From Hypomesus transpacificus (taxonomy: Eukaryota > Chordata > Actinopteri > Osmeriformes > Osmeridae): a stretch of 64,000 nucleotides of DNA. Positions 5,866 through 63,701 of the stretch are shown here, one piece after another. Position 1 is the stretch's first letter. Every line of letters begins with the position of its first letter. The DNA lies in contig NC_061070.1 of the NCBI RefSeq assembly GCF_021917145.1, forward strand, positions 11,132,078 through 11,196,077, read 5' to 3'. The notes under the pieces were generated by a model. The model saw only the letters and a list, made by a program, of their open reading frames with translations, searched no databases and was not told where the DNA came from. The translations under genes were made by a program, and so were the position numbers.

Positions 5866-6034
5866 TACATTTAGTCATTTAGCAGATGCTCTTATCCAGA
5901 GCGACTTACAGTAAGTACAGGGACATTCCCCCGAGGCAAGTAAGGTGAAGTGCTTTGCCCAAGGACACAACGTCAAACCGGCAATCTTCTAGTTGCCGGT
6001 CCTACCATCATACTAGTATGGGAATGCTGCCGGC
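5866..6034. repeat. Teleost dispersed repeat in tmem63b intron 1
   Basis: Begins TACATTTAGTCATTTAGC and contains TCTTATCCAGAGCGACTTAC followed by a spacer with AAGTGCTTTGCCCAAGGACA. I know this sequence as one of the commonest dispersed repeats in ray-finned fish, often seen in introns and near microsatellites. I cannot assign it firmly to a SINE or a non-autonomous DNA transposon family. There is no coding capacity. Confidence 0.75.
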
Positions 6035-15300: not shown

Positions 15301-17930
15301 GTCAACCGCCACACCAAACAAAGTTGTATTGATTGAGTTACGTGACACCAGCACATGATTCCCCTCTGAGAAGTTTTTGAAAAGTATTATGTAATGTGAT
15401 ATGTACTTTTTTTGGACATTGCACAGTTATGTTCCTGAAATTCCCCGCTTATCTCACCCTTTGATTCCTGCCCCATATCTTGTATCTCTTATCTTCCTCT
15501 GCTTGTCACGTAACAATGATCTGCTATGGGGGGGGAACACGTAGGACAATATCCACGCCCATCAACGTGTTCTCAGTGAACTCGACATTCCCAAGGAGGG
15601 GTGAACCCTCCGGCCTGCTCGTGTCGCCGCGGTGACCGCTCTCCCCTCTCTGCCCCCCCCAGGTGTGTGTTCCTGCCCGACAACGGGGCGTTCTTCGTCA
15701 ACTACGTCATCGCCTCGGCGTTCATCGGTAACGCCATGGACCTGCTCCGCATCCCCGGCCTGCTCATGTACATGATCCGCCTGTGCCTGGCTCGCTCGGC
15801 TGCTGAGCGGAGGAACGTCAAGAGGGTCAGTCCCCGATACCACACCCGTGCCCCCCCCCCTGTGGCCCCCCTGTGCAAAAAAGTAAATCATCATAATTTG
15901 TTTGTTTTTAATGTGCCCCTCTGATTAAACGCTGGCCCCCCCAGTAAGATTTGTCTAGAACTGCCACTGCCTTTACTTGATGTGACTTGCCTGTGTGTGT
16001 CTACAGCACCAGGCCTACGAGTTCCAGTTCGGGGCCGCCTACGCCTGGATGATGTGCGTGTTCACCGTGGTCATGACGTACAGCATCACCTGTCCCATCA
16101 TCGTGCCCTTCGGTGAGGTCCACGGTTTAAACGCTTGCCCCTCCCTCTCTCCCGCCTGCGTGTTCTTCTGCATGGTGACGGCCCGCTATGAACGGCCCCC
16201 ACAGTGTGTCGCCACGCTGTTAGCTCCGGCCGGGCAGTTTGCTCGGACCAGAGGCATTCCGTGAGACTTTCAACCTCGCGTGGAACACCTCCACTCACGT
16301 TAACGACCGGTAGTTAGCCGTTGGACAAATGAACGATTCAATAAACGAACAAATGGTCATCCGTTGTCACGGTGTCAGCAGCGCTTGTGGTACTGTGTGA
16401 CAACGTAGCGACATCCCACTCGAGCTCGCGCGTTATCGCTGCATGCAGCACGTCGGTCACGCCGTGCTGACAGTCAGCGATAACTCGCTGCCTCTCGTGT
16501 GGTATTGCTTCATTGTCACCCGGTTCACACAGGAAGGGGCCTGCTAGACATGGCTTCCCCTGCAGGAGGGCTTGGCAACAAGCAGAATAGGATTCTTCTC
16601 ACTGGGTTTCTTTTCCTGTCTCGGGCCCCCCAGGCCTGATGTACATGCTGCTGAAGCACCTGGCAGACAGGTACAACATGTACTACGCCTACCTGCCCTC
16701 CAAGCTGGACAAGAAGATCCACTCAGGGGCGGTGAACCAGGTGGTGGCTGCCCCCATACTCTGCCTCTTTTGGCTGCTCTTCTTCTCCACTGTGCGCACA
16801 GGTGCGACAGCCCCCACACACACACGCACACACACACACAGGCTGACTCGGGCCGTCGACCGCGAGCGACCTCCACGTCCAGTGGAATCGAACGGTCAAA
16901 GTCAACGTCTCTTTGCCCCCCCCCGTTTCCTCTCCCTCCTCCCTCCAGGCTTCTCGGCCGCCACGTCCATGTTCACGTTCGTGGTCCTGATCATCACCAT
17001 CATCATATGTCTCTCCCACGTGTGCTTCGGACACTTCAAATATCTCAGCGCCCACAACTACAAGGTAAACCACCCGAGTGCTGCAGAGACCTTTTCCTCT
17101 TCTCACAATAGAGGAACCAAGTTGTGCTGTGTCAAGCCCTGCGACGGCCTGGTGCTTGGTTGTTTTTTCACATTTTGCGGAACAGGTTGTCTGGAAATGG
17201 GAAGTTTGAAATGCATACAACGTTCATACAATTGGACATGCTGTTGTAATAATTTTTTTTATGGTAAAACCCTTTTCATTTTTTGGGGTCGTCTAGAAAG
17301 TTAGCTAAAAGAAACAGTATTAACAGAGCTTAGACTGCTGATCCACAATGAATGAACATGAACGAGCCACAATCATTTTTGCTAGTAACAGAACCTAAAC
17401 CCACCTACTGTCCCGTTTTTGGTTCTTAATTTGTAAATGTTCGAAAACAAGACTGAATATCCTTGTGGGTTTCGAGAAAATGTGAATGAGCGAGGACTAA
17501 ATGTTCCACTGTTCTGTGCATGTTTGGCCCAGATTGACACCCAGGAGGTGGATGGATTAGAGAACGGGCGCCCACCACTCACCTCTCCCTCCAACAAGTC
17601 TGCAGTAAGTATTTCCTCAGCGTATTTCCCCTGTGTCTTGCCGTTCCTTTCACCGTGTCATGCCCCCGCTGCTGTAAGGAATCGTGATCCGCATCCGATC
17701 TTGACTGTCTCTTTTCTTCTTGCCGTCTCCACCCCCGCCTCTCGCAGCAGATGTACATTGCCCAGGTGCTGCAGGATCCGAACGCAGACGAGCTGGGCTC
17801 GGGCAGCGGGGAGGACGACGGCCAGGGCTCCTCGCAGGACGAGGAGATCATAAACGTGGGGAACAGCCTCAACGAGGCCGACTTCCAGTCCGGAGAGGAC
17901 AGCCTCATTGCCAATGAGGTGCGTCACTGA
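6994..17930 (+). CDS. tmem63b: TMEM63B, osmo/mechanosensitive cation channel (OSCA/TMEM63 family)
   Basis: Multi-pass membrane channel gated by membrane stretch and low osmolarity. Coding exons: 6994..7188, 7542..7621, 9043..9081, 10578..10668, 10786..10823, 10938..11080, 11829..11880, 12011..12119, 12312..12382, 13259..13339, 13520..13643, 13837..13970, 14118..14255, 14422..14575, 14703..14809, 14988..15074, 15190..15255, 15663..15825, 16007..16112, 16634..16801, 16949..17064, 17533..17604, 17751..17930. All phases agree and give 837 residues; I remember human TMEM63B as 832. Family stretches include [20 protein letters not shown] after the N-terminus, the first membrane segments to about residue 200, a cytosolic domain with GHLCCC and CKCQGCDC, then the pore-domain helices ([32 protein letters not shown]). 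The C-terminal tail is acidic. Introns are short and GC-rich, with many homopolymer runs. Confidence 0.97.
7264..7285. repeat. 22-base C homopolymer
   Basis: An uninterrupted run of 22 C in the intron after the first tmem63b coding exon. The exact length is likely to be polymorphic or assembly-sensitive. Confidence 0.9.
8366..8565. repeat. Purine-rich minisatellite, about 46-base unit, four copies
   Basis: The word GTAAGGTAGAGAGAC recurs at about 8380, 8428, 8474 and 8520, spacing 48, 46 and 46 bases, each followed by GTGACAGACTGAGGGA and a GA tract. It lies in a tmem63b intron. The minus-strand open frames across it are artefacts of the repeat. Confidence 0.85.
9043..9081 (+). other. tmem63b: 39-base in-frame exon of tmem63b (candidate cassette exon 4)
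   Basis: The exon is 39 bases long (1 + 12 codons + 2), so skipping it keeps the frame. It encodes the 13-residue segment between TDAD(R) and VASAM. Its acceptor is weak, CTGAAG with a poor pyrimidine tract end, and its donor is GTATGT. Mammalian Tmem63b has a similarly placed small exon 4 described as alternatively spliced. The position and size match, which suggests the switch is conserved; this is inference. Confidence 0.7.
9298..9560. repeat. CT-rich satellite tract
   Basis: Alternating CT dinucleotides pass into a roughly 20-base unit, CTCTCGCCCTGTCTCT, repeated several times (9440-9550). It is in the intron after the 39-base exon. The long plus-strand and minus-strand frames covering it come from the repeat and are not genes. 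Confidence 0.9.
14300..14384. repeat. GT/CT microsatellite in tmem63b intron
   Basis: Interrupted TGTG and CTCT runs between the exons ending at 14255 and starting at 14422. Simple sequence with no coding meaning. Confidence 0.8.
14629..14648. repeat. 20-base G homopolymer
   Basis: An unbroken run of 20 G in the 127-base intron between the exons ending at 14575 and starting at 14703. Confidence 0.9.
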
Positions 17931-25866: not shown

Positions 25867-27618
25867 TCACAGTTTGATGCGCCCCAGGGAGGCTGTGAGC
25901 TGGGCCTGCAGGGCCATCTGGTCGAAGGTGCGCCTGTGCGTCTGCTCTCTCACCCGCTCCCTCATGTGGAAGGAGGCTCGCACCACCTTGCGGGCCTCTT
26001 CCTGCCGCCTCTCCCTCCGCTCCTGCAGCTGCTCCCTCCGGTGCTCCTTCATGGCGACGTGTGCCTGCCGTCGAGCCATCTCGGCCTCTTCCTCCCTGCG
26101 GACCCCGTCTTGGAGCCTTCGGTGGCTCCGCTGCCTCTCCTGGTTGGCCTGGCCGGCCTGCTGGGCTCTGTGACAGCGCTGAGCGTGGGCGTGCCGGGTG
26201 GCCTGCTCCATGCGCTGCTGGCTCAGCCGGGCCAGCACCTGCTTGTGTGTGAGCTGCTGCTGGCTCTGCTGCTGGGCCCTGCGCTGGCTCCTCTGGGCCT
26301 GCCGCTCCTCTCGGGCGGCGCGCTCCCGCAGCTCCTGCAGCCGCGCCTCCGTCGCCCGCGAGTGCTTTTCCCCGGAGCGTCTCAGCTTCTGCTCCAGAGC
26401 GCTCCTCATCCGGGCCCCTTCGGCCTCGGCGTCCTCCTCCGCCTTCTTCTTCAGGAGGAGGTGGTGCGACAGAGAACAGCGGTTCTCCCGTTGGCGCTTG
26501 TTCCTCTCTCTCGTTTCCCGGCACAGCTTGTTCCTCGTGGCCCTCTGCTCCTTCTCCCTCGCCAGCTGCCATTCCCCCTCCCTCAGCAGCTGCTCCTCTC
26601 GCTCCTTGCCTTGGAGCAGATGCTCCTGGTAGTGTTTGCGCCCCGCCGCGCTTCTCCGCGCCGCCTCCGTCCTCTCCCTCTGCTGGGCTTCCTGTTCCTC
26701 GGTCAGCCTTCTCCAGCGGTCTTCCTGCAGCAGCAACTCTTGCTCCCGCTGGCTGGCTAACTCCTCCACCCGACTCTCCCTCAGCCTTCTGCGAGCCTCC
26801 TGCGCGTCGCGCCACCGCTGCGTGCTGCGCTCCAGCTCTTGCCTCCTCCTCCTCTCGACTCGAGCCCGGTGGAGCTCCTCCTTCCTGCGGGCCTCCTCTC
26901 TCTCCCGCTCGTCCTGGTGGCTGAGCTTCCGGCGGGCCTGCTCATCTTGGTGTTTCACAAGCATCAGAGCTGCTATCTTGCGGTCTTTCTCTGGCACTGT
27001 GACCTGCATCTCTTTTTTGATGTCCTGGGTTAGCCTCTCTAACTGCCTCTCAGTGGCTGGTGAATGTCTGAAGTCACCCAGACTGATAGACACTGTGTTA
27101 TTGTGGTCATCTGTTCTCAACCTGATTGGTTGTCGGGTGTCAGGGGTAATGAAAGACCTGCACCGGCTAACAGATTTTTTTCTAAAGCCCTCATCTACAC
27201 ATGGATCCGTTCCCGGTTTCTTATCGTCTTCACCGCCACAATCTTTCCTAGAATTTGCATCAGAGCTCTCACTGTCTAGCTCCAGAACCGTTTGCAAAGC
27301 TGACAGTTTCTTTCCAGACCTATCCTCTGCCAGTTTCATCATCCTTTCCCTCTCCTCGCGACACAATCGCAAAAGCTTTCTGTGCTTCTTTTCGTATGCT
27401 TCATACAGGATAGACACTGTCTCGAACGGAATGTCCTGGTGCTCTTCAATAAACTCATTAAGAGATTGTATCAAAAGTTCAACTGGTTTGACACCTAGTC
27501 GTGCACATGATTCTAGTGATCGAGGACTGGTTAAAACATATCTGCTTCCATCAGCTTCAGTTTTATCGAAGTTGTTTAAATCTAAGATCAGCATTGGAGA
27601 GGGCGACCTAACCTCCAT
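25867..27618 (-). CDS. ccdc177: Coiled-coil domain-containing protein 177
   Basis: Single-exon gene of 583 codons on the minus strand; human CCDC177 is also intronless but longer (about 707). Function is unknown. The N-terminal block (residues about 8-100) has the conserved DLNNFDKTEADGSRYVLTSP and VKPVELL, then VSILYEAYEKKHRKLLRLCR. From about residue 190 to the end the chain is dominated by R, E, Q, A and K, with long heptad-compatible stretches of coiled coil or single alpha-helix. The ending is LGRIKL. GC content is clearly higher in the helical part than in the first third. The large antisense frames over this gene are shadows caused by its codon usage. Confidence 0.93.
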   Translation of the reverse strand: MEVRSPSPMLILDLNNFDKTEADGSRYVLTSPRSLESCARLGVKPVELLIQSLNEFIEEHQDIPFETVSILYEAYEKKHRKLLRLCREERERMMKLAEDRSGKKLSALQTVLELDSESSDANSRKDCGGEDDKKPGTDPCVDEGFRKKSVSRCRSFITPDTRQPIRLRTDDHNNTVSISLGDFRHSPATERQLERLTQDIKKEMQVTVPEKDRKIAALMLVKHQDEQARRKLSHQDEREREEARRKEELHRARVERRRRQELERSTQRWRDAQEARRRLRESRVEELASQREQELLLQEDRWRRLTEEQEAQQRERTEAARRSAAGRKHYQEHLLQGKEREEQLLREGEWQLAREKEQRATRNKLCRETRERNKRQRENRCSLSHHLLLKKKAEEDAEAEGARMRSALEQKLRRSGEKHSRATEARLQELRERAAREERQAQRSQRRAQQQSQQQLTHKQVLARLSQQRMEQATRHAHAQRCHRAQQAGQANQERQRSHRRLQDGVRREEEAEMARRQAHVAMKEHRREQLQERRERRQEEARKVVRASFHMRERVREQTHRRTFDQMALQAQLTASLGRIKL

Positions 27619-28231
27619 GGTTGTTCAACAGTTAGCCTAGGCAAACTAGCTAGCACTACATTATAACTAATGCAGTACTACATAATGTAACGCTAGTACA
27701 TTATCTCGCCTGCTAGCTAGCGCGGACAGTACTAGTACAGTAACAGCTGTTAACGGGTAGCTAAAATAGCTACTAGTAGATAGGGTCACATTAGCTAAGC
27801 TAGCTAGATTGGGTCACTCAGTACTGTAGCACACATTATGAACAAACCAAACAACATTTGCACTTCTGATATTTTTAAGGGTTTTAAGGATATTTATATT
27901 CCGACATTGAAACCAGCAGCAATGAAAAGATTATCTGGTGTGCGTTGGCGTTGCTGAGTCGGAGAAAAAAACTGGCAACGCTTTCAGTCACCATGGCAAT
28001 CTTAAAGTTAACGCACCATTTCCCCTAAGAAAACTACTTTGTACTACTACAGCGCCCTCTAATGAAGGATGACAGTGATGTAAAGACTCAATAATTGGTA
28101 CTTATTACCTAGCTGTATTGCATATCTTAAATTATGCATTAGAATACCATTGTTTCAAACATTTCAAACATGTTAAAAAGCCATCATAATGAAAGGCAAT
28201 TAAACAAAGATTCAATACACTTCATTACATG
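27619..28231. other. ccdc177 upstream region
   Basis: Contains a dense set of TAGCTAGC and GCTAGCTAG words at 27,630-27,810, the probable promoter of ccdc177, then AT-rich sequence up to the comtd1 poly(A) signal. No gene is visible. Confidence 0.5.
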
Positions 28232-41100: not shown

Positions 41101-44100
41101 GCTACTTGTACAGGCGGCAGTCATCAGCTAGGATTGTGTCACCTGCCCTTGAACAGGAAGTGGTGTGCTGATAAGGAAGTGTTTTGTGTACAGTCCAACA
41201 GCATGTGCAGCCCTGATAATCACACCGAATGGGCTTGGTTTGACGGGCTTCAAGGGACCACTTGTGGCTGTATTTGTACACACGCGTCTGTGTGACATAC
41301 CGTCATTTGCTAGTTTTCATAACTACAGATAGCTGGGGTGAATTATGAATGTGTACCGTGTTCATTGGCATAACACTGATTTAGTTTGATCAAGATATTA
41401 TCCATCCCCATTCAAGATTAGATCTGGTCAGTCTTCGTCAAGTCTGCTCATTAGAAATCAGGGATTATGTTCCCTCGAAGAGGGACAAAGTACATTTGAA
41501 TAGGTGCATTTTTTTAAACCCTTGTATAAATCCAATGACATGGATTTTATGAGAGGCAGATTGCATACATGCTGTAAAAGATGCAGTTGTCTGCTGTGGT
41601 TCTGCCTGCAGTCACTGCTGTCTCTTCACTCATTCACCACAGACACAATCATCCCTCGGGTTTCTGATGAGTCACCGTGCTAATGTACACTGTTGAGCCC
41701 AAAAACCTGAAAACCGCAAAGCGAAGGATTTAAGTTTCTTCTTCCATTTTATTTCCCTCCCTTTTCTCATCAGTGTTCCTGGTTTCTGCCTGAGCTCTTT
41801 TTCTGTTGAAAAAATAATAATTCTGCCATATCCTCCTTTTTGTTTTTCTTTTTTGCTTCTTCAGCCCCCCTTAGTGGTTCACTCTCCTTTTTCTTGATTG
41901 TCCTTAACATTTCACCCTGCTATGTTATTTCCTTCTACAACTCTCTGTCTCTTTCTGTTTGTTAAAAGCTGTATACCATTCGGGAGCACAGATTAGAGTA
42001 CCGGTAGTAGTAGTAGGGGTGACAGACCAGATCATGTGACTCATGTGAATGAGCTTATACAGTAGTTAGCAAGTGGCTGGTTTTGCTGTGGGGTTGCTCC
42101 ATAAGCATTGTTCTCCAGCTAAGGAACTAGGAACTATGGCGGAAACTCAGGGTGTAAAGGGGAAACTTGTGGCACGACAGGACACCAGGGGGGATGCCTG
42201 GAAATGTAAGTTTGCAGGTGTGGGTTTTGGTTGTGTTGATTTGGTCTATGTTGGTGGGGGTGAATAGCCTCCAACACTAATTCTGCATTTATGTCTTGGT
42301 GTGTGTGTTTTAGTGTATTCTATTCTTTGTGTGGGTGATTATACTTCATTATGAAATAGGTTAGAACCACCTACTGGTGCAAGACTTTTCCAGTGGACCC
42401 ATACATTGGGATTAGTGTGTGCACATTGTTGGAGTATATGAGCTAATGCGATCCCCTCTAGTCCACCTGTTTGACCGTCCCTCTCCCACTTTCTCTTGTC
42501 TCCTACTACAGTCGATGCTGATGAGATTAAAAGGCTAGGGAAGAGGTTTAAGAAACTCGACCTAGATAACTCAGGCTCGTTAAGTGTGGAGGAATTCATG
42601 TCCCTGCCCGAGCTTCAACAGAACCCGCTGGTGCAGAGGGTCATCGACATATTCGACACAGACGGCAATGGAGAGGTGGACTTCAAAGGTAACAGTGCCA
42701 TGAACGTGCAGATGTGGTCGGCCATTCTCAGAAAACAAGGAGTTGTAACTGTTTATTTCAAAAATGAGACCCATTTTTTATACAAAAAAAGTGCTTTCTT
42801 TAGAACTTTGAGAACTCATAAGAATTAAAGCAGCTAAAATTGACAAAGCAGACCTGTAAACATCCTTTACATAACGTTGTATAACAATTGAACTGCATTG
42901 TTGTTTCAGTTTTAGGTATTAAAGATAATTTTATAAAATTACACCAAGAATGGGACCTGTGACTGCTCTGGCTCTGACACCCCCATTTTGTTATTCTGCC
43001 TGAGATTGGCATTTGCAGTAGCCAGAGTTTCACCAAACATTAATCACATTGCAAGATTAACAAAAGGATCTTTGTAACCACAGGAAACAAATGAGGACTT
43101 TGGCCCCTTACCCAATCTATTTACTATAAAATATTACCAAGAAAATTGTTTAATCAAGATTTCATTACACGCCACAGCAAGGTTCTGAGTGCAGCTAGTA
43201 GGCTATCTTTGATGCAGGTAGCAATGTTGGGAAATATCTGAAGAACTACTGAAAGTCAAGGTTTTATGCCTAAATTGATTCAAATGTGTGTATTTAAATC
43301 GTCCACAATTCTGTCCAGAAGTATTCATATTGTGTTTATCGTAGACTAACCATTCCTCTTTCCCCAGAGTTTATTGAGGGAGTCTCCCAGTTCAGTGTCA
43401 AGGGTGACAAAGAACAGAAGCTTCGGTGTAAGTAAAGCTCAAAGAATGCACGCGCGCACACACATTCATCTGTGGAAATGGTAATGTAATTCTTCTATGA
43501 GTGGGTCTCCTACTGTAATGGAACATGAAACAAACCCTTTTCACTTCTACCTATCCTCCATCTGCAGTCGCCTTCAGGATCTACGACATGGACAAGGATG
43601 GTTACATCTCCAACGGCGAGCTCTTCCAGGTTTTGAAGATGATGGTGGGCAACAACCTAAAGGACACACAGCTGCAGCAGATAGTGGACAAAACCATTAT
43701 CAATGCAGACAAGGACGGAGACGGCAGGATATCCTTTGAAGAGTTCTGCGCAGTAAGCCCCCCCCCCCCCCCACACACACACACACACTCATCTTGGAGA
43801 ACAGACATGCCAAAAAGCTGATGGCGCTCTTTCAGTGGGAGCAATATACATTTGAGTGCCAGCTCCCTGACTGTGCATTTTTCTATGGCTTACAGTATTA
43901 CAACATCCCCTTAAATGTTATTGCGATAGCTCCCATTGTCTACAATTAAATGTCTTTAGTTATTAGAATAGTTACTTGTGGGTACATAAGTGATGGCACC
44001 CAGAGAATAGACTGAATGTTTCGCTACGGGCTATTTCTTACATTTTTATTAATTTTGCATGTTTGTGATAAATCAATGTTGCTGGTACTCACATTATTAG

Positions 44101-53085: not shown

Positions 53086-56000
53086 TCATAGCCAGCACTT
53101 AAACTTGAAGAAGTCCTGCAGGTCCTTGTCATCCACTGACTTATTATGGATTCCAGCATAAACGCTTTTCAGAAGATGAGTCTTGAATTTCCCATCCAGG
53201 ATATCGATGTATTTCTCTATGCAACCTTGAAAGACAAATCAAGTATTAAAACTATTTAGTAGGCATATTAATAGGATAAATGTCAGATAAAAGTGTCTTG
53301 TCATCGGCTCAGTGCAATGAAACAATCAAACAACAATTCAAACACATTCTTTCCATTCACCACTTTCATCAAGGTCCTACTTTCTTAAAATGTACACTAT
53401 GTTCCTATAATATCTTCTGTACCACTGCCAACAATGTTTTGTCAGCACAGAATGACTGAAATACAAAAGGACTGGCTATATTGTCTACTTACACAGGGAA
53501 CTGTGACTGTGAGGACCCTATGAATGCACCATGTGAATGCCAACCAAGTCCACACAATCCAGTACACAACCATAAACCTTAAGATAAGAACCCCCAAAAG
53601 GTGTCCCTCTTACCCAGGCCCATGACCTTCCCGTAGGCTACGAGGTTGGGCCCTAACTGGGGGTGGTCATACAACTCCAGCTTCATGAGGTTGCGGATGA
53701 TCTCGCCCGTGATGAAGGCGTCGTCAAACGTCTGCTCGGCCACAGGCCTCAGGGGGAACCTGCAGTACACCTCCACGGCAGCCAGGGGGTCTGACTTCAC
53801 CAGCATTTCCGCCAGCTCAATGTAAGCATCATGGACCTGGGCCATCAAGCAATGGGGGGACCGGACGTTCAAATGGGCATCAAATAAGCTCCGCTACTGT
53901 TGTTTCTCAGTATATTTTGCTCGTACCCCAGTGGTCTGGCTAACACACTGACTGACCTCTGGTGCCATGGAAATGACTTCCTGGTAGAACTGGCAAGCCT
54001 GGTCCTGTGTGTCTGCGTTGCGAGAGAGGGCGCGGGCCAGGCCTAAGCGGGGGGCGTGGGACCGGCGGTTCACAGGGGTGGGGCCACCAGGGCATTCAGC
54101 TGCTGCCGACTCTGCAGTGGAATTATTTTCATGTTGTCACAGGACAGACACAAGCACATGCACAAACAGTTGGATGTTGACATCATCAAATAAATGGACT
54201 GCTATTTAGTAACTGGGTATGATAAGAGGATGTATGCGTGTGCAATCCTGATAGGAACTGGGATTCTTGATCCGCCCCACCACCATCCCACCCCTACCCC
54301 ACCCCTACCACACCCCTACCCCACCCCCCTTGCTCCCCCTTTCCCCAGGGCTGTGGAGCCTACCCTGTGGAGCTCCTGCTTTGGTAGAGCTGGGGGAGCA
54401 GTCTGTTTTGGACTTGCTGGGGGAGAGCTGAGTCTTGGAGCTGGGCTTTGCCGGGGCTCTGGATGATCCATCCGTCCTTGGTCCCGCCGCTGCTCCAGCT
54501 CGCCCCCTACAGGGGAGATGTAGAACTGTGACCGGGGGCAATCGCAATGCCTGTGGTCTGATTTTGTGCTCGTGCTTTTATTCACAATGCAAGGACGATG
54601 TATTGCAAACAGTCTCAAGTTCAAGCTGAAACAGGAGCAAATCCTCTTTCAAAGCACGGAGGGGTGGATGGATTAACTTAGAAACGCAATATGAGTGTGG
54701 AATATTTATGACTGAATAAATCATTGTGTCCGTGTCTCTCCAGTTCATAAATGTCACAACTCATCCTCATCACCTATCGCTATAACCCGTCAACACTCTG
54801 ATTCTGCTCCTTTGACGTCTTTACTCATCTGACTCACCTGGCCACAGGGGGCTTGGCGCAGGGGGCGGCCCTGGCCCCTCCTTTAGCAGGCGCAGTGGCC
54901 TTGGCGACCACTGTAGCCCCCCCTCGACCGGGGCCTCCCCTGCCACGCCCACTCCCTCTCCCAGCGGCCCCTCCGTCGGAAGGCCCCGCGGTCCCCGTGG
55001 ATTGGCTGGCTGTCTGCTTGGCGTCTTTCTCCTTCTCAGAGGCCAGCTTTTCCTGCCACCACTTCTGCTCTGCGAATAGCAGGGGGAGATGGCACAGCCG
55101 GTCGCACAGGGACACGCTTTTTCAAGCGGCTAATACGCGTGTGCGTGTCTACGTGTGTGTTCATTCCAACAGGATTATGATGATGTACGTTATAAGGATT
55201 GCTAGATGATGTCGCGCATACGTCCACACGCGTTTCTCATTGGTCAGAATGACACACAAGCGTTTCTGTCTTACTGGTCAGCTGGACGGGGGGGTCCCCG
55301 CCCTGAGGCTTGTCCTCCAGCTCGAGGCTGGCCTGGAAGCTGAGGCAGGCGTCGGCCAAGTTGGCCTTTGACCTTTCTGACTCAGGGTCGTTGTCAAAGT
55401 GAGCCAACTGGGCCAGACCCAGGAGGTACAAGGCATGGCCGTCACAAGGAGTGGTCACCACTGCAACCTGGCACACCTGTGCAGAGAATTATACTGATCA
55501 TAAAGATTTAAGGATATACTACTTAGGGTCCATGTTAAACCCTGCCACTATTTTACCATTCAACAGCATATGAGGCTAGGTTTATGTGTACAGTGGCCAC
55601 TAACACTCAGGAGTCAACACCAGTAGTCAAACACTGCTTGACTATTCACTTACAACCCCATCCAAACTCACATATACAGTTGGTGATCTGAGGCAACTGG
55701 ATGCACCACATTACTCCATGATGGTCTAACCTTCTCCTGCATATCCAGCAGTTCCCTACAGGGGGCGATGGCGGTGAGGCGGATGAGGGCGGCGAGGGCC
55801 TGGCACCTCTTGGCCACCGAGGCCTGTCTCTCCGTGCCAGGCTTGGCCAGCATGAGACCCTGGAGAAGGGCAAAGTGGGCATCGAGCAACACCCACTCCA
55901 ACTGTTGGGCCACCTCTCCCCGACACACACACTGACACACAGCCTGGGCTGCGAGCACTGCAATACTTGGGGGAGAGAAGGAGGGATGGGTATATAAACT

Positions 56001-58087
56001 CGGGCACACATAACACAAAGATAGAATAAGATACATGCTAACTAACACGGGTAGGTATATCCCTTTTTGAAAATAAATAAGAAAGAAATGAAGTAACTTA
56101 CATGTGATAGACTTGCTGTCCACTCATGGTCTTGCCTGGGAGAGTGTTCTTCTTTTGGAGGGCGGCCCCTTGCACGAGGCAGCCACGCAGGAAGTGAGTG
56201 CTGGCGCTCGACAGAGGCTCCCAAACGGCCTGCTCCACGCCCCTGGGAACGACAGCCGAGTTCATCCCAGGACCTCGCGTCAGCTCCAAACACCCGCTCC
56301 CACTCCCACCCCGGTACCTGTCGCTGCAGTACTGAGCGATGACGTGCTCCAGTCCCTGCTGCAGGAACCCAGCCGCCTCACTCGCAGCCTCCTCCGAGGT
56401 TCCGCTCCCCTGTCGCAGAAGAGCCGAGCCTGTATAGAACCTACAAGGACACACACAAACACGCCTCAAGAACATAAACACACATTCCGCCCAAACTCGA
56501 CCTACGGTTGAATCTCGACTTGACGTTTAGACATCCACTGGGTGTTGGACATCCAAGTAGGGGATGATTCTTGTAGGTAAGTGGGTGTTGCGGCTCCATG
56601 CGGAGGCCTCCTTACCTGAGAGCAGGCTGGGAGGGTCGTAGGGCCAGGCCGGTCTGCAGGTGCTGCAGGGCCTCCCGCTCCAGCCCCTGCAGCAGCAGCA
56701 GACGCCCCGTGTGCAGGTTAAACTCCCAGTCGTCGGGGCTCAGAGACCAGGCGTCCAGGTACTTCAGAGAGGCCCTGTGCATGCAGCTCTCCTTGTCCCT
56801 GAGGCCTGCACTGCCATCCTGGGACAACATTGGTCGAGAGCAAAGGGTTCATGTTGTTCTCCGTCATTCATCTTGAGTACTATGACATGGCATTGATAAG
56901 GAATCGGTTCGGCTCATTTTGAATCAAGTCTACTCATAGTATTGGTTACAGGGAAATACACTCTGGCTGTACATGATCTTTATGTTGCATACTGTTCGCT
57001 TAAAATAATATATAAGAAGGCTCTTAGATTTATTTTAGGCACTGAATGATGAATGGCATTTCAACAGCCAGCGAAGTCTTCTGAAGTCTACTCTCACCTT
57101 TCATCTAACAGCCATTGATCTGACAGTTCAGAGAAGGCATGGAGATCACAGACACACACACACACCCACCGACACACACACACATACACTCGCGGACACA
57201 CACACGCCCTGCAGAGCTACCATCACATTATTATTAGTGACGGTGGAAGGTCCTGTGTCACTGTCTGAGAATGGGGACATGAAATTGATCTGTCTGGTAG
57301 GGACGGAGGGTACGGAGCGTCGTCCGAGTACCTTGCCAGCCCTCTTGGAGAGCCAGATGTAGAGGGTTTGGACGTAGTCGGCCTTGCCTGACTGGTCCTG
57401 TTCCTTCAGCTGGTGGTACTCAGTGTCCACGGCCTTCAGCTGCTTCTCCAGGGTCGGCGTGCCGGTGAAACCATGGAGCTTACAGAGAGCCAGGATGTCG
57501 TCCTGAAGGCTCGTTGCCTTGGCCCCTCTCAGCTCCTCTGAATCCCCATCTGCCTGATGACATAACATATCAGTGATCCTGAACTCGTCTTTATGAAAAA
57601 TGAGGATTGGTTTTGATGTTTGGTTAGAAGTCTCAGGTTCAAATCCTTGTGCATTCAAAGCCCCCGGTTGCGCGGAAAATATGCTGCTGCACGATTATGT
57701 TGCACGAAGAGCAGCAACAGTAACCTGGGTTATACTACAATAGCAGAGTTATACAGCAATACTATAGCAACGAATGAACGAATGATGATGATCAACACCG
57801 CACCATAATCCCAAACAGATGACAGTGTATCTGTAAATTACTTTTTTCTTCAAGCCATACATCTCTGTGGCATGGTGCTGTTCCTCCAGAGCCTGCCCCA
57901 GCAGGAAGTGGAATCTGGGATCCTTGGGTTTCAGTTTGATGGCTGAGGCGTAGTGGATGGCAACCTGCTCCAGGCTGTCTAAAGGAGACTGGCCCTCCTC
58001 ATACTGTAGCATGTCACCTGGAGAAACACACAAGCAGGCACTTAGTACACACACACACACACACGCACACGCACACGCACACGCACG

Positions 58088-58158
<71 letters not shown>

Positions 58159-61100
58159 GCGCGTACGAGCAGGCCAGGCAGGCAGCCAGGCTCTCACAGG
58201 CAGGCTCTCATAACAAAAAAGGAACATGGTCTTCGTGTGAGAGCCTCTTCTCTTTCACTTATGAATCATTGCATGCATCTTTTTGGCATTAAATATTCAG
58301 TGAGTGTAACTTGTCTTGGCAAAAACGCCTATTACCTGTCACCCTGCATTGATGTCAACATGTTTTACATCCCGGAAGATATAAACAAGCTTCACCCTGA
58401 CCCCGCATAAAGATTTGGCAACCAAGTGTTCAGAATTGGTCTGAATTCAGTTTTCTGTTGGAGATACTTTTGGCATTCCTTGAGGGTTAGATTTCCTACC
58501 TCAATAAAGACAATTTAAGATGTATTTCCGGAAGTGTTTTGTGTCGACCAACATGCACACAAAAACATAAACTCCCTCTCGAACATTTGAACCTAAACAT
58601 TTTCTACCTCAACATTCAACATTGAGCATTTTGTTAAAGTAGATTCCTTGTATTTATTCAAAGGTTGGGCTCTACACCCCAGCCTCTCTCAGGTGTCAAG
58701 AATTATGTTTCAAGGCCAATGACTCCTATCCAATACTCTAGGATCAGTCTCTGATGCCACTTATCATGTCACCACTGACAATTAGTGGCTTAAAAAAGAC
58801 TAACAGTAACTTGAGTGGCTGCATGTCAAGAGAAGCCTTTTAAGCTAACGTTAACTAGCGCTTCTTCATGTATTTTTCAATGGGTACGGCTAATCCACAA
58901 TGATCTGGGACAGTTGCCAGTGTAGCAGGCAGCCTTGGAAACTGAAACATGCCTGGTTTAGGTAGGCGCTGCCTGTACAGTTTCAGATGGTCTTGGGCTA
59001 AGGTACATAGATTATCTACGCTGTCTTCTCCAATTGCCTTTTGTAGTTTCTTCTCCCAGTTACGGACCTGAAGAGACAAAGAAGGCAATCACCATTAACT
59101 TATCATCATCCTCATCCTCACTTAGTAGATCCATACCTTCACAAGCACATAATAAAGTTTGACTGGCTGTATGATATTGAGGTCTTGGTAAGTAAAGTCA
59201 GTGTCCCTCCAAAAGGTTTCATTACCTCAAGAGTGTGCTTGGTCTCTATCTCTAAGTTGCTAGAAGATGCAAAATACTTCTTATACCAGCTTGTCTCTGT
59301 GACATCCTGAAAGAACAATTGCTTCTTGATCAAATATATTATAACAAAATCTGACAAAAGCTTAGTTGCAGTAGTGAATGTCAATAGAATTGTATCCTTA
59401 AGAGCTATAAAATAAACTGTTATTTTCACAAATACAAAACAGAGATATCTGTAATGAACTGCTTTGTCAAAATACGAACTCTCTTGATTAACCAAAACTT
59501 TATACCAACTCATCTTTATGGCAGTGTCAAAACCTAAAACACCACTGCGGTTAGACCAAGTCGTCTTTGCAGTGACATAGTAAATAAAGCATGAGGTCGA
59601 GCCTGGCTCACTGGCTGTGATTTTGGCCCTTTGGTCACACGGCTGCTCAATCATTCATGCTGACCTTTGCATCCAGGTCCGCTGACGGTTTGTGGGGACA
59701 CCGCAGCGCGTGTGAACCCACCTCGGCCAGTTTCACCAAACTTTCACATCCTTTCAAAAGACGTCAGGCAGAATTATCACCTAGCCCGTGTATGATACAC
59801 TCGCTATTAAAATATAATTAAAGAACAAAAAGCAGGAAGAAAAAATTGTAATGACAACCAAGCCTAATTACCAGTCCAGATAATGTATGTGTACTATAAT
59901 AGAATGGCATAAAAACAGAAGAAAAATAAGATATTCTACTGATATAGCCTATTTGACAGTGTTTAGTACCTCTGTATGCAAAGAAACATTTGACAAGAGC
60001 TGCGGACATTTTCCCATCCAGGTCTGGCTCTAGAACCTTCCAGCTATCTCCCAGAGGACACTCATTTAACGGGTCAACTTTCGACCTACGTGCCAGCATG
60101 TCAATGTATGGCCCGGAGAAGATGTGCTTAGGTTCACTGCATAAAGACAAGGTAACCCAATTAACAAGGATCAAGAGCTTATTGGGGAGGTTCTTTGTCC
60201 TGACAGGTTACAGCATGTTCTACCATTCTCACTTGTCCCGCACATTACAAAAACAACAGTATTTCAATTACGAGCGATATGAGACGTTTAATCCTCTCTT
60301 AAAACGATATGCCTTTCTTATTGCATGATATGCATAGTGTAGTCAAACGTTATCACTTGTTTGACTAATCCAGGAGGTTCTTGGAAAATTACCATTCCTT
60401 ATAGGTTTATACCACATATACCACTTGGTGGAATTATACCTGTTTTCAGTAGATACCTCCTATACCAGCTCACCTCTGGTAAATGGAAACAGGTCTGTAG
60501 AGGGCAGTTAGAGACACAGGGCACTCATAGTCCACACAATCTTTTGCATCACTGAAAGTCACAGCCATGGGAATCTGCTCCCGAGTCACTGACACTGTAT
60601 AAATCTGGGGGAGAAGAAACCGGAAATAGTTAAACAGTTTAACAATAGTGCATATGAAGTTTCCCGCCTCTAATTTTCATTAAAGATATTAGTATTTTGC
60701 CTAATTTGATTTTGTAATTCATCTCTTCAGCAAGACAGTGATGAGACCAGAAAAATATTATCTGGTCATAAATTCTATCAAATGTTTCACCAAACATCTC
60801 ATATTTGATAATTACTGAGGGTAAAACAACAGTATCAGTTTACCTGTGAATTGCTGCCATCTGCTGAGCAAACCTTGATCTCTACCATTGTGTCTCCAAC
60901 GTTTAGTGAGACGAATTGAGAGCTGCTCTCTCCATTCACTAAAACCTTCATGTTTTTATCAGGTACTTTGGGCAGCATGGTCATAGTATTACAATAGAAA
61001 GAAACTGTGCCTATAGAGAACAAAAATCAATGCATAAGTGATAGTATTAATTATCAATGAGGGTACATTTTATTTTTTTGCCCTTTGCAAGGAAGCTAGG

Positions 61101-61757
61101 CTATATATCAACTATTAAATAGCTTTCTTAGAATGAATGACAAAATTGTAATTATCAGTCCTCTAAATTACTGTATTGAATAGAACTGAACTATTCATCA
61201 TACCCTGACTTGAAGCAATATCGCTTTTATTATAAGGTAATAAATTAGGCAACCCACTTGAATATTCATAAATGTTTGCAGAAAATGCAGGATGCAGTTG
61301 AACATCTCCCTCAATGGACAGTTCACTCAGCACTGCGGTCCTTGCAGACAGTTTGGAGACCTCAATGCTGTATTTCTTAGAGGTGCCATCCTCAGCTACC
61401 ACTTCTATATCAACCACATTTAATCCATCATTTAGTTGAATGGTTTTGGAACCGTCTCCTAAAAACTGAAGGTTGAACAAAAAAGCATTGATTGTAAAGT
61501 GTACAGTATAACGTCTGATAACTCAATCAGATAGCTCCGGTTCAGTGGTACAGGTTGTCACATAACAATTTTTGAATGTAGGTTTTAGCTCTACTCACAA
61601 TTTTGTAGGAAGCACCACAATCACTTGTCAGTAGGTCCAGCGTAACGTTGTTGACATTGCTTGCAACAGTGACTTTGTAACTTGTTACACTTGATTTGAA
61701 GGTGGGCTGTAACTTCCCTCCTGATATGGAAAGCTTTTCTAAATCACAGTTATCCAT
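53086..61757 (-). CDS. Unrecognised cadherin-like beta-sandwich / U-box-like / TPR protein
   Basis: Twenty phase-consistent exons: 61599..61757, 61204..61465, 60844..61010, 60474..60604, 59970..60136, 59665..59750, 59226..59306, 58953..59067, 57842..58017, 57332..57553, 56616..56818, 56318..56440, 56102..56242, 55731..55965, 55275..55476, 54838..55069, 54364..54506, 53957..54111, 53614..53836, 53086..53225; 1,120 residues. Residues 1-93 and 95-205 look like two tandem cadherin-like beta-sandwich repeats (LEKLSISGGKLQPTF..., closing KYSIEVSKL and IYTVSVTRE). Residues 220-290 resemble a U-box (CP at 224-225 and again at 266-267, no zinc ligand set). From about 390 on come TPR-type helices (HYASAIKLKPKDPRFHFLLG, LSPDDWEFNLHTG, GHALYLLGLAQLAHF), broken by an RG/Pro/Ser-rich linker at about 840-950. 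The join of exons 8 and 9 uses a GC donor. The domains suggest a ubiquitin-ligase scaffold; that is inference. Two separate genes remain possible. Confidence 0.8.
58046..58157. repeat. CA microsatellite with CACG interruptions
   Basis: Over 100 bases of CA repeats in the intron between exons 8 and 9 of the U-box/TPR gene, immediately upstream (in transcription sense) of the exon 9 acceptor at 58018. The open frames over it are repeat artefacts. Confidence 0.95.
58653..58658 (-). terminator. Candidate intronic poly(A) signal for a short U-box isoform
   Basis: AATAAA on the minus strand about 200 bases after the in-frame TAG at 58855-58857 that ends the read-through of exon 8. It would produce a 421-residue protein with the beta-sandwiches and the U-box-like region but no TPRs. 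Confidence 0.4.
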
Positions 61758-62575
61758 TTTCTCCTTTTCCTTACACCTGGCATAACTCAAGATACCTGTC
61801 ACAACTCTTTGTAAATGTCTTAAGGCTAAGACACCAATCTAGCACACCCTTGAGTCTTGCATTGCTGGACTTTCCGTCGACGCTCAATGAAACCATAGTA
61901 ACGTCAACTCATCCTACATGACATGCTCACTTGCAGCGACCTGATTAAAAACAATACAAACAATCCAAAAACAAATCGAGGGTGACTGTCTGACAAAATA
62001 AAACATTATTTTAATCAATAAACCACTTTATTTATGGTAGAACACAATATACACAATGGAGCGATAAAAAAATCTACGTGTTCCTCCAGTAATTCCTCCA
62101 ACACTAGACGGCGACAGAGCAAGAAAGGAGCTCCAGTTCTTCTAAACCGGTTTGTTGTTGGCTGTTCCATCAATTCACTTCCTGTCTCCGGTCTACAACG
62201 TGTGTTGGATTGAAAACATTTTGCAGTCCAACTGACAAGCTGTATTGATGGTAGCGATATACACAAACTACTCATATGTGTTGCACTAAAAATAACGGCA
62301 GCATATATTTTAACTGGCCAACATTGATTGTATGGCTTTGCGTTTTAAAATGTGCATATTTGCTTTTTTGTTGGTTGTCAGGCCGGCTAGCTGTAGACTA
62401 GTGTCAAATGAGAATGGAGTTATGCTAGCTACCATAGTAAGATTATGTATAACACGTTTTATCAAATGTATAAATAGCTTCTAAAATATATATATAGCCT
62501 ATAGCTAACTAACTGTTCGGTAATTAACGTTTTGCTACATTTCTGACTGACTAATGTCTAACGTTACGATAGGAC
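61758..62575. promoter_or_regulatory. Bidirectional promoter region, U-box/TPR gene and c1d
   Basis: Start codons of two divergent genes are 818 bases apart. An acceptor-like ACGATAG just before the c1d ATG points to a non-coding c1d first exon inside this interval. The part at 62,380-62,510 has GCTAGCT and TAGCTAAC words like the other promoters in the window. Confidence 0.5.
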
Positions 62576-63701
62576 ATGGCAGAAGACATACCTGAAGACT
62601 ATCCTACAGAGATTGAGGAGCAGCTCAAGGGATTCGAATCTTCAGTGGCCTCTGTGAACACAATGGTACAGACTGTGTTGTCAATGCCCAGAAAGGAACT
62701 TATGGAAAAGGTAAGGCCTTTCAAAGGCAGTCATTTAATCTCATTGTAATGTTTCTTGATAATTGCCTACCGCAGCTAAAGGTAAAAGACCTGCAACAAT
62801 CAGTCTCAAACTGTCTGAGCTTTGCTTTTGCAGATAGGCTACTAGCTAGCAGATCAGCTCTCTAAATTGCATACTGATGGTGGGTATAGTTTACTCTTTC
62901 TGTGTGTTTACTTTGTAAAATTATTATCTCTTGTCATTTTTGGTAGCTGGACCCTCTTGAGCAAGCTAAACTGGACTTGATGTCTGCATATACCCTCAAT
63001 TCATTATTCTGGAGTAAGTGATGTTTTCTGATGTGACTTTGTAATTGTCAATAATTTAATGTAAAGAATACATTTCTGACCAGCCCCCTTAAAAAAACAA
63101 TTTCTCGGTTACAGTGTACCTGGTAACACAAGGAATTAACCCTAAAGAACATGGAATCAAGCAAGAACTGGTACGTTGTTTTTATCCCACCCTAACTCAT
63201 TCAACACCAGGACTGTGTTTAGATGAAGTGAACCAACATTCCCTCTTTAAGGAGAAGTTAAAAGTAAGGTTCTGACCGGTGGCCAACAGAATTACACTGT
63301 TTAAATCTAGTTATATCATCTGTCTTTTAACTTAGGTCGATAACTAGTACAGTAAGTATTTAAACAAATTGGTTAGGTTAGGATATTTCCAGCGTTGAGT
63401 ATCTATTTGTGTGTGTGCATAAGAAAAGTCCCCTATCTTTGACTCGCTACAGGAGAGAATCAGGACATACATGAACAGAGTCAAGGAGATCACAGACAGA
63501 AAGAAGGCAGCCCGTCTGGACAAAGGAGCGGTGTCTCGCTTTGTCAGAAACGCCCTGTGGGACGCTGAGGAAGCCGCTTCCAAAAAAGAAGGGCAGGCAT
63601 CCAAAACGGAAGGGACGTCGTCGAAAAAAGAATGGCTGTCAAAGAAGCACAAGGACACTCCAGGTCGTGGCCAACACTCTAAGCGCCCTAAGTTGAACTG
63701 A
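62576..63701 (+). CDS. c1d: C1D nuclear RNA exosome cofactor / corepressor
   Basis: Small nuclear protein of the Sas10/Utp3/C1D family; it supports the RNA exosome (Rrp6/MTR4) in rRNA processing, and was first described as a DNA-binding nuclear corepressor. Four coding exons (62576..62710, 62947..63013, 63115..63170, 63453..63701) give 168 residues. The helical domain is plain: [49 protein letters not shown] and [20 protein letters not shown], then [20 protein letters not shown]. The lysine-rich tail is about 27 residues longer than in human C1D (141). It closes the C1D-WDR92-PNO1-PPP3R1-CNRIP1 block seen at human 2p14. Confidence 0.97.

Follow-up and report, generated by a model that had tools for sequence, protein, structure and literature searches.

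A stretch of 64,000 nucleotides of Hypomesus transpacificus DNA (NCBI RefSeq assembly GCF_021917145.1, contig NC_061070.1, positions 11,132,078 to 11,196,077; hereafter the window, whose own numbering is used throughout) was found to contain a minus-strand gene with an unusual domain architecture. Twenty exons, running from 61757 to 53086, splice into a single frame of 1102 codons without internal stop. The frame encodes two tandem cadherin-like domains of Pfam family PF12733, then a U-box-like segment, then a C-terminal part containing tetratricopeptide repeats (TPRs). With somewhat less than even confidence we read this as one working vertebrate gene, whose 1102-residue product would be an intracellular scaffold that includes a degenerate U-box-like module and may act as a ubiquitin ligase. 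The original prediction, which had drawn attention to this architecture, was mostly right.

Gene model and recognizable domains

Exons were placed by hand using open frames, the sequence, a three-frame print and the donor and acceptor sites. The start codon at 61757 has A at -3 and G at +4, as read from the sequence, and the frame ends with TGA at 53088-53086. Because the exon ends were hand-chosen, the 1102-codon frame counts as strong, though not as independent, evidence, and this choice by hand is the point in favour of a pseudogene or a false gene model. Such an explanation is very improbable, since the long frame is open, phases are consistent at all 19 junctions and two strong-scoring domains each span introns. 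The gene looks real, and the interval 53086..61757, originally called as a gene, was filled by one minus-strand model.

Both cadherin-like domains exceeded the Pfam cut-off (24.2). Domain 1 (residues 7-91, profile positions 2-88 of 89) gave 55.6 bits and E 7.4e-15, domain 2 (residues 100-187, profile positions 2-89 of 89) 49.7 bits and E 5.3e-13, and the E-value of the family for the whole chain was 4e-26. The two N-terminal beta-sandwiches had thus been named correctly, and the predicted order of cadherin-like domains, CP...CP segment and TPRs was also right. When the head was used to search PDB sequences at E up to 1, only one chance match (E 0.55) was returned.

When plasmid records were searched with the N-terminal 195 residues by tblastn, 48 records matched, 30 of them from Cronobacter. 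In the best match, a Cronobacter record (37.5% identity, E 1e-9), both domains fell on one and the same 303-base stretch, corresponding to approximately 100 residues. Among the matches listed, 6 of 8 carried an autotransporter annotation. Autotransporters are surface proteins, and the similarity to them (about 37% identity) is limited to the cadherin-like repeat. Bacterial contamination was rejected on the inference drawn from the 19 introns of the gene.

TPRs are present in the C-terminal part. Three Pfam families scored above their whole-protein cut-offs: TPR_11 (34.1 bits, cut-off 26.8, E 2.1e-8), TPR_17 (32.3 bits, cut-off 24.4, E 8.7e-8) and TPR_14 (25.8 bits, cut-off 23.5, E 1.4e-5). TPR_16 (29.1 bits, cut-off 32.7), TPR_19 (21.5, cut-off 25), TPR_Slam and TPR_6 were below theirs. 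The strongest stretches were residues 393-420, 527-591 and 952-993; residues 806-945 form a linker in which Ala, Gly, Ser, Pro and Lys are abundant. An array extending over residues 390-1120 had been predicted. The repeats themselves were found, but the stretches between the best of them received no Pfam assignment, so that extending the array without a break across 390-1102 would be an extrapolation. Searched against PDB sequences up to an E of 1, the TPR part matched 12, the lowest E being 0.00049. Six of these were engineered, designed or consensus TPRs; two were OGT, one was I432-1-CC and three were diacylglycerol acyltransferases.

The highest mean hydropathy was 0.89 for 10 residues within residues 1-69, and 1.54 for 19 residues in the whole chain. 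By this crude test no signal peptide or clear membrane helix was evident, which suggests that the protein is probably intracellular.

Donor sites were GT in 18 of the 19 introns. The exception is the step from exon 8 to exon 9, which requires a GC-AG intron, and it is only through this intron that exons 1-8, coding for the head, connect to exons 9-20, coding for the TPR part. If exon 8 is left unspliced, or if only GT donors are allowed, translation reaches a TAG at 58857-58855 and the product has 403 residues. It was therefore considered that there are two transcripts or genes, one for a cadherin-like/U-box-like protein of 403 residues ending at 58855 and one for a TPR protein starting from the ATG near 58012, and that the fusion is an artefact. 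The TAG is consistent with this, as are the scores of the 10 GT sites in exon 8 up to the stop, which were all below -3 (the 18 GT donors used scored -0.8 to 8.5), and an in-frame ATG located five bases into exon 9. Moreover, GC-AG introns are frequently subject to alternative use. However, the GC donor at 58953 (CCAG|GCATGT) reached 5.67, the top value of any GT or GC site in 58700-59067, with a matrix that was built from vertebrate frequencies and in which a GC donor, though rarer, carries no penalty. Only 15 of 3028 GC dinucleotides on the minus strand scored at least 5.6. The donor is in phase 1, matching the requirement of exon 9, whose good acceptor is the sole one above 3 in 57842-59067, as for an internal exon. 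Since the GC donor was the best-scoring site and had the right phase and the GT sites were poor, intron 8 was taken to be of the GC-AG type; two separate genes or transcripts appear improbable, and the single-gene model was retained. A GT donor for exon 8 was rejected on score, and the possibility of a further exon between 8 and 9 was weighed; no acceptor there exceeded 3 apart from that of exon 9.

Intron 8 (58018-58952) includes a long CA repeat, and its retention would lead to the 403-residue short form. The 75-base mini-intron 56243-56317 is open in frame and may be retained, which would lengthen the protein by 25 residues.

The U-box-like segment

In the single-gene reading, the N-terminal beta-sandwiches and the TPR-containing C-terminal part, with the flexible basic linker inside it, would hold partner proteins. 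The middle module would be a degenerate U-box-like domain of RING fold, probably zinc-free, and most likely would dock a ubiquitin-conjugating enzyme (E2). The protein would then act as a ubiquitin ligase, with the TPRs picking the client.

The alignment of the segment (residues 202-278) with a profile of six U-boxes by hhalign is compatible with such a module. It scored 19.4 over 42 columns (hhalign probability 9.8%) in the register CP...PV...F...I...DP...PL, which lines CP...DP...CPL up with residues numbered 11-53 in the CHIP box used. At the positions of CHIP Ile235 and Pro269, which we take to be E2-contact residues, the alignment placed Val and Pro. The score of 19.4 was reached by 1 of 600 shuffled sequences, and when 69 windows across the protein were aligned, the top two were those covering the segment most fully. 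The sole other weak Pfam match of the segment was zf-Nse, a MIZ-type finger, far under cut-off (E 0.13 and 0.17). Since zf-Nse also matches PUB14 and both PRP19s, this match, though under cut-off, is compatible with a RING/U-box-type fold.

Several observations weigh against a U-box. PF04564, the Pfam U-box family, was not reported in the segment or in the protein at E up to 10, a setting at which the HMMER filters still discard most matches above E of about 0.1, whereas all six known U-boxes used as positive controls matched it (the weakest, yeast PRP19, at E 1.9e-5). True U-boxes aligned each against the other five scored 47.3-88.8, as compared with 19.4 for the segment, whose score fell to 16.7 when PUB14 was dropped from the profile and rose to 20.4 when CHIP was dropped, the two extremes of leaving out one U-box. 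Among 300 decoys, which were windows from open frames of at least 77 residues in the whole 64 kb and mostly non-coding, three exceeded 19.4 (24.3, 23.8 and 20.3), the first two overlapping in one frame. As the segment had been picked by eye, any P value is weakened further. At the position of CHIP Arg272, a further E2-contact residue that is presumably needed for activity, the alignment placed Glu, so that the arginine is not kept. An AlphaFold model of one exon (predicted local distance difference test score 53.9) supported nothing, and the PDB sequence search with the segment returned just two ribosomal S17 chains at E of about 1.

The U-box assignment is thus possible but below accepted thresholds, the profile alignment being suggestive, no more. 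The U-box of the original prediction was not recovered by Pfam, and its support is the weak in-register alignment. The same single gene may instead encode a pure intracellular scaffold, in which the CP...CP segment would be an inactive remnant of a RING fold, a fold of MIZ type or simply a spacer. To this alternative we assign a considerable, though less than even, probability. It would account for the missing Pfam U-box report, for zf-Nse as the one weak family match, for the decoys that align to U-boxes equally well and for the glutamate in place of Arg272; the U-box register retained with its DP...PL signature, and the top rank of the segment within its own protein, argue against it. The scaffold with a degenerate U-box-like module remains the reading tentatively preferred here.

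Comparison with known proteins

In uniting TPRs with a possible U-box, the protein is reminiscent of the ligase CHIP / STUB1. According to PMC3087547, CHIP orthologues carry their three TPRs at the N terminus and the U-box at the C terminus. In the present protein this order is reversed, so that it does not have the layout of a CHIP orthologue; there are also two extra beta-sandwich domains, the TPR-containing part is far longer than three repeats, the U-box match is under threshold and Arg272 is not kept. No CHIP chains were among the PDB matches of the head or of the TPR part at E up to 1. The original description as a CHIP in reverse was fair as to order, but membership in the U-box family is only tentative.

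A second likeness is to C7orf58, presumably the protein now named CPED1. The following statements on PF12733 refer to the available part of a 2010 study (PMC2824669). C7orf58 is an animal protein bearing PF12733, and its subfamily has ATP-grasp and PC-esterase domains, neither of which was reported here by Pfam. PC-esterase proteins carry signal peptides and are secreted (PMC2824669), whereas no signal peptide was seen here by hydropathy. Another metazoan PF12733 protein, LOC580673 of sea urchin (PMC2824669), could be an orthologue. Within eukaryotes only metazoa and chlorophyte algae were found to have the family, for which lateral transfer from bacteria was proposed; in bacterial proteins PF12733 occurs together with, among others, FNIII, SLH, cell-wall-binding and glycohydrolase domains (PMC2824669).

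Animal U-box ligases were surveyed in 2010 (PMC3087547, available part), with seven main human genes, the doubtful Act1 and six lineage-specific genes. Divergent or lineage-specific U-box proteins (Nv_UBOXa, Mb_UBOXa-e, Act1) are included, none of them described there with cadherin-like domains plus TPRs, and the combination of cadherin-like domain, TPR and U-box is described for no ligase in that part of the survey. In the open-licence PMC literature, as judged by titles and abstract openings of the papers listed, no description of such a gene was found, nor any paper joining U-box, tetratricopeptide and cadherin-like domain, or cadherin-like, U-box, TPR and teleost. The gene is undescribed in the sense of open-licence papers, not unsequenced, and uncharacterised orthologues very likely have entries in databases. 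Relatives were not found in viral contigs for residues 1-430 or the C-terminal 172 residues, nor in prokaryotic genome contigs for residues 1-278; these collections have no bearing on vertebrate orthologues.

A probably intracellular vertebrate protein with PF12733 and TPRs, perhaps also with a U-box, is on neither published list as far as the available parts of PMC3087547 and PMC2824669 go. It would be a further, as yet unstudied, scaffold or ligase, possibly one lost in mammals. A more far-reaching proposal, which we consider unlikely, is an undescribed family of vertebrate ubiquitin ligases that combines intracellular, bacterial-type cadherin-like domains with a TPR array and a U-box and that persisted in fish while mammals lost it; in this family the GC-AG intron at the border of head and TPR part might switch between the full ligase and the TPR-less form of 403 residues.

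Feature coordinates and gene neighbourhood

Table 1. Features of the cadherin-like/TPR gene, in window coordinates
Feature	Position	Strand	Remarks
exon 1	61599..61757	-	ATG at 61757; first half of cadherin-like domain 1
exon 2	61258..61465	-	second half of cadherin-like domain 1 and start of domain 2
cadherin-like domain 1 (PF12733), residues 7-91	61352..61739	-	split by intron 1; E 7.4e-15
cadherin-like domain 2 (PF12733), residues 100-187	60578..61327	-	split by introns 2 and 3; E 5.3e-13
exon 3	60844..61010	-	
exon 4	60474..60604	-	end of domain 2 and first CP of U-box-like segment
exon 5	59970..60136	-	DP...CPL portion of U-box-like segment
U-box-like segment, residues 202-278	59970..60535	-	contains intron 4; weak evidence
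exon 6	59665..59750	-	
exon 7	59226..59306	-	
exon 8	58953..59067	-	GC donor CCAG|GCATGT at end; read-through TAG 58857-58855
intron 8, GC-AG	58018..58952	-	long CA repeat inside
exon 9	57842..58017	-	TPR residues 393-420; in-frame ATG at 58012
exon 10	57332..57553	-	
exon 11	56616..56818	-	TPR residues 527-570
exon 12	56318..56440	-	followed by 75-base mini-intron, open in frame
exon 13	56102..56242	-	
exon 14	55731..55965	-	
exon 15	55275..55476	-	
exon 16	54838..55069	-	start of Ala/Gly/Ser/Pro/Lys-rich linker (residues 806-945)
exon 17	54364..54506	-	linker
exon 18	53957..54111	-	C-terminal TPR begins
exon 19	53614..53836	-	C-terminal TPR (952-993), continued
exon 20	53086..53225	-	TGA 53088-53086; AATAAA on minus strand from 52984

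The gene is flanked by plus-strand frames that we take to be WDR92-like (50683 and 51174) and C1D-like (62576 and 63423). In Pfam the two WDR92-like frames had no match, and the C1D-like frame at 63423 had a sub-threshold, unrelated ISG65-75 match alone. An EF-hand frame was found by Pfam at 42475, and presumably belongs to PPP3R1. The compact introns, a UnaL2 LINE tail in the window and the order of the genes fit a ray-finned fish as host. The gene thus lies tail to tail with the likely WDR92 and head to head with the likely C1D, with 818 bases from ATG to ATG. This gap (61758-62575) has a GC content of 38% and a CpG observed/expected ratio of 0.76, and may be a shared promoter.

For human and mouse the available part of PMC5501828 gives the order PPP3R1, PNO1, WDR92, 'CD1' (taken here as C1D), ETAA1 and lists no gene between WDR92 and 'CD1'; the zebrafish list given there stops at wdr92, short of the place of this gene. 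The prediction that no human counterpart lies between WDR92 and C1D agrees with this published neighbour list. Loss of the gene in mammals is plausible.

Elsewhere in the window, a minus-strand frame at 834-1229 encodes a Ribosomal L14 domain (E 1e-13), probably that of mitochondrial MRPL14, and the frame at 16591 has a match below cut-off to the RSN1_7TM channel family (E 0.0011) and is presumably TMEM63-like. Together these two recall human 6p21 rather than 2p14. An open frame of 585 residues at 25870-27624 on the minus strand matched DUF4659 nearly completely (E 3.7e-84), and a UnaL2 LINE 3' element (Rfam RF00436, E 6.8e-10) was located at 5869-5922 on the same strand.

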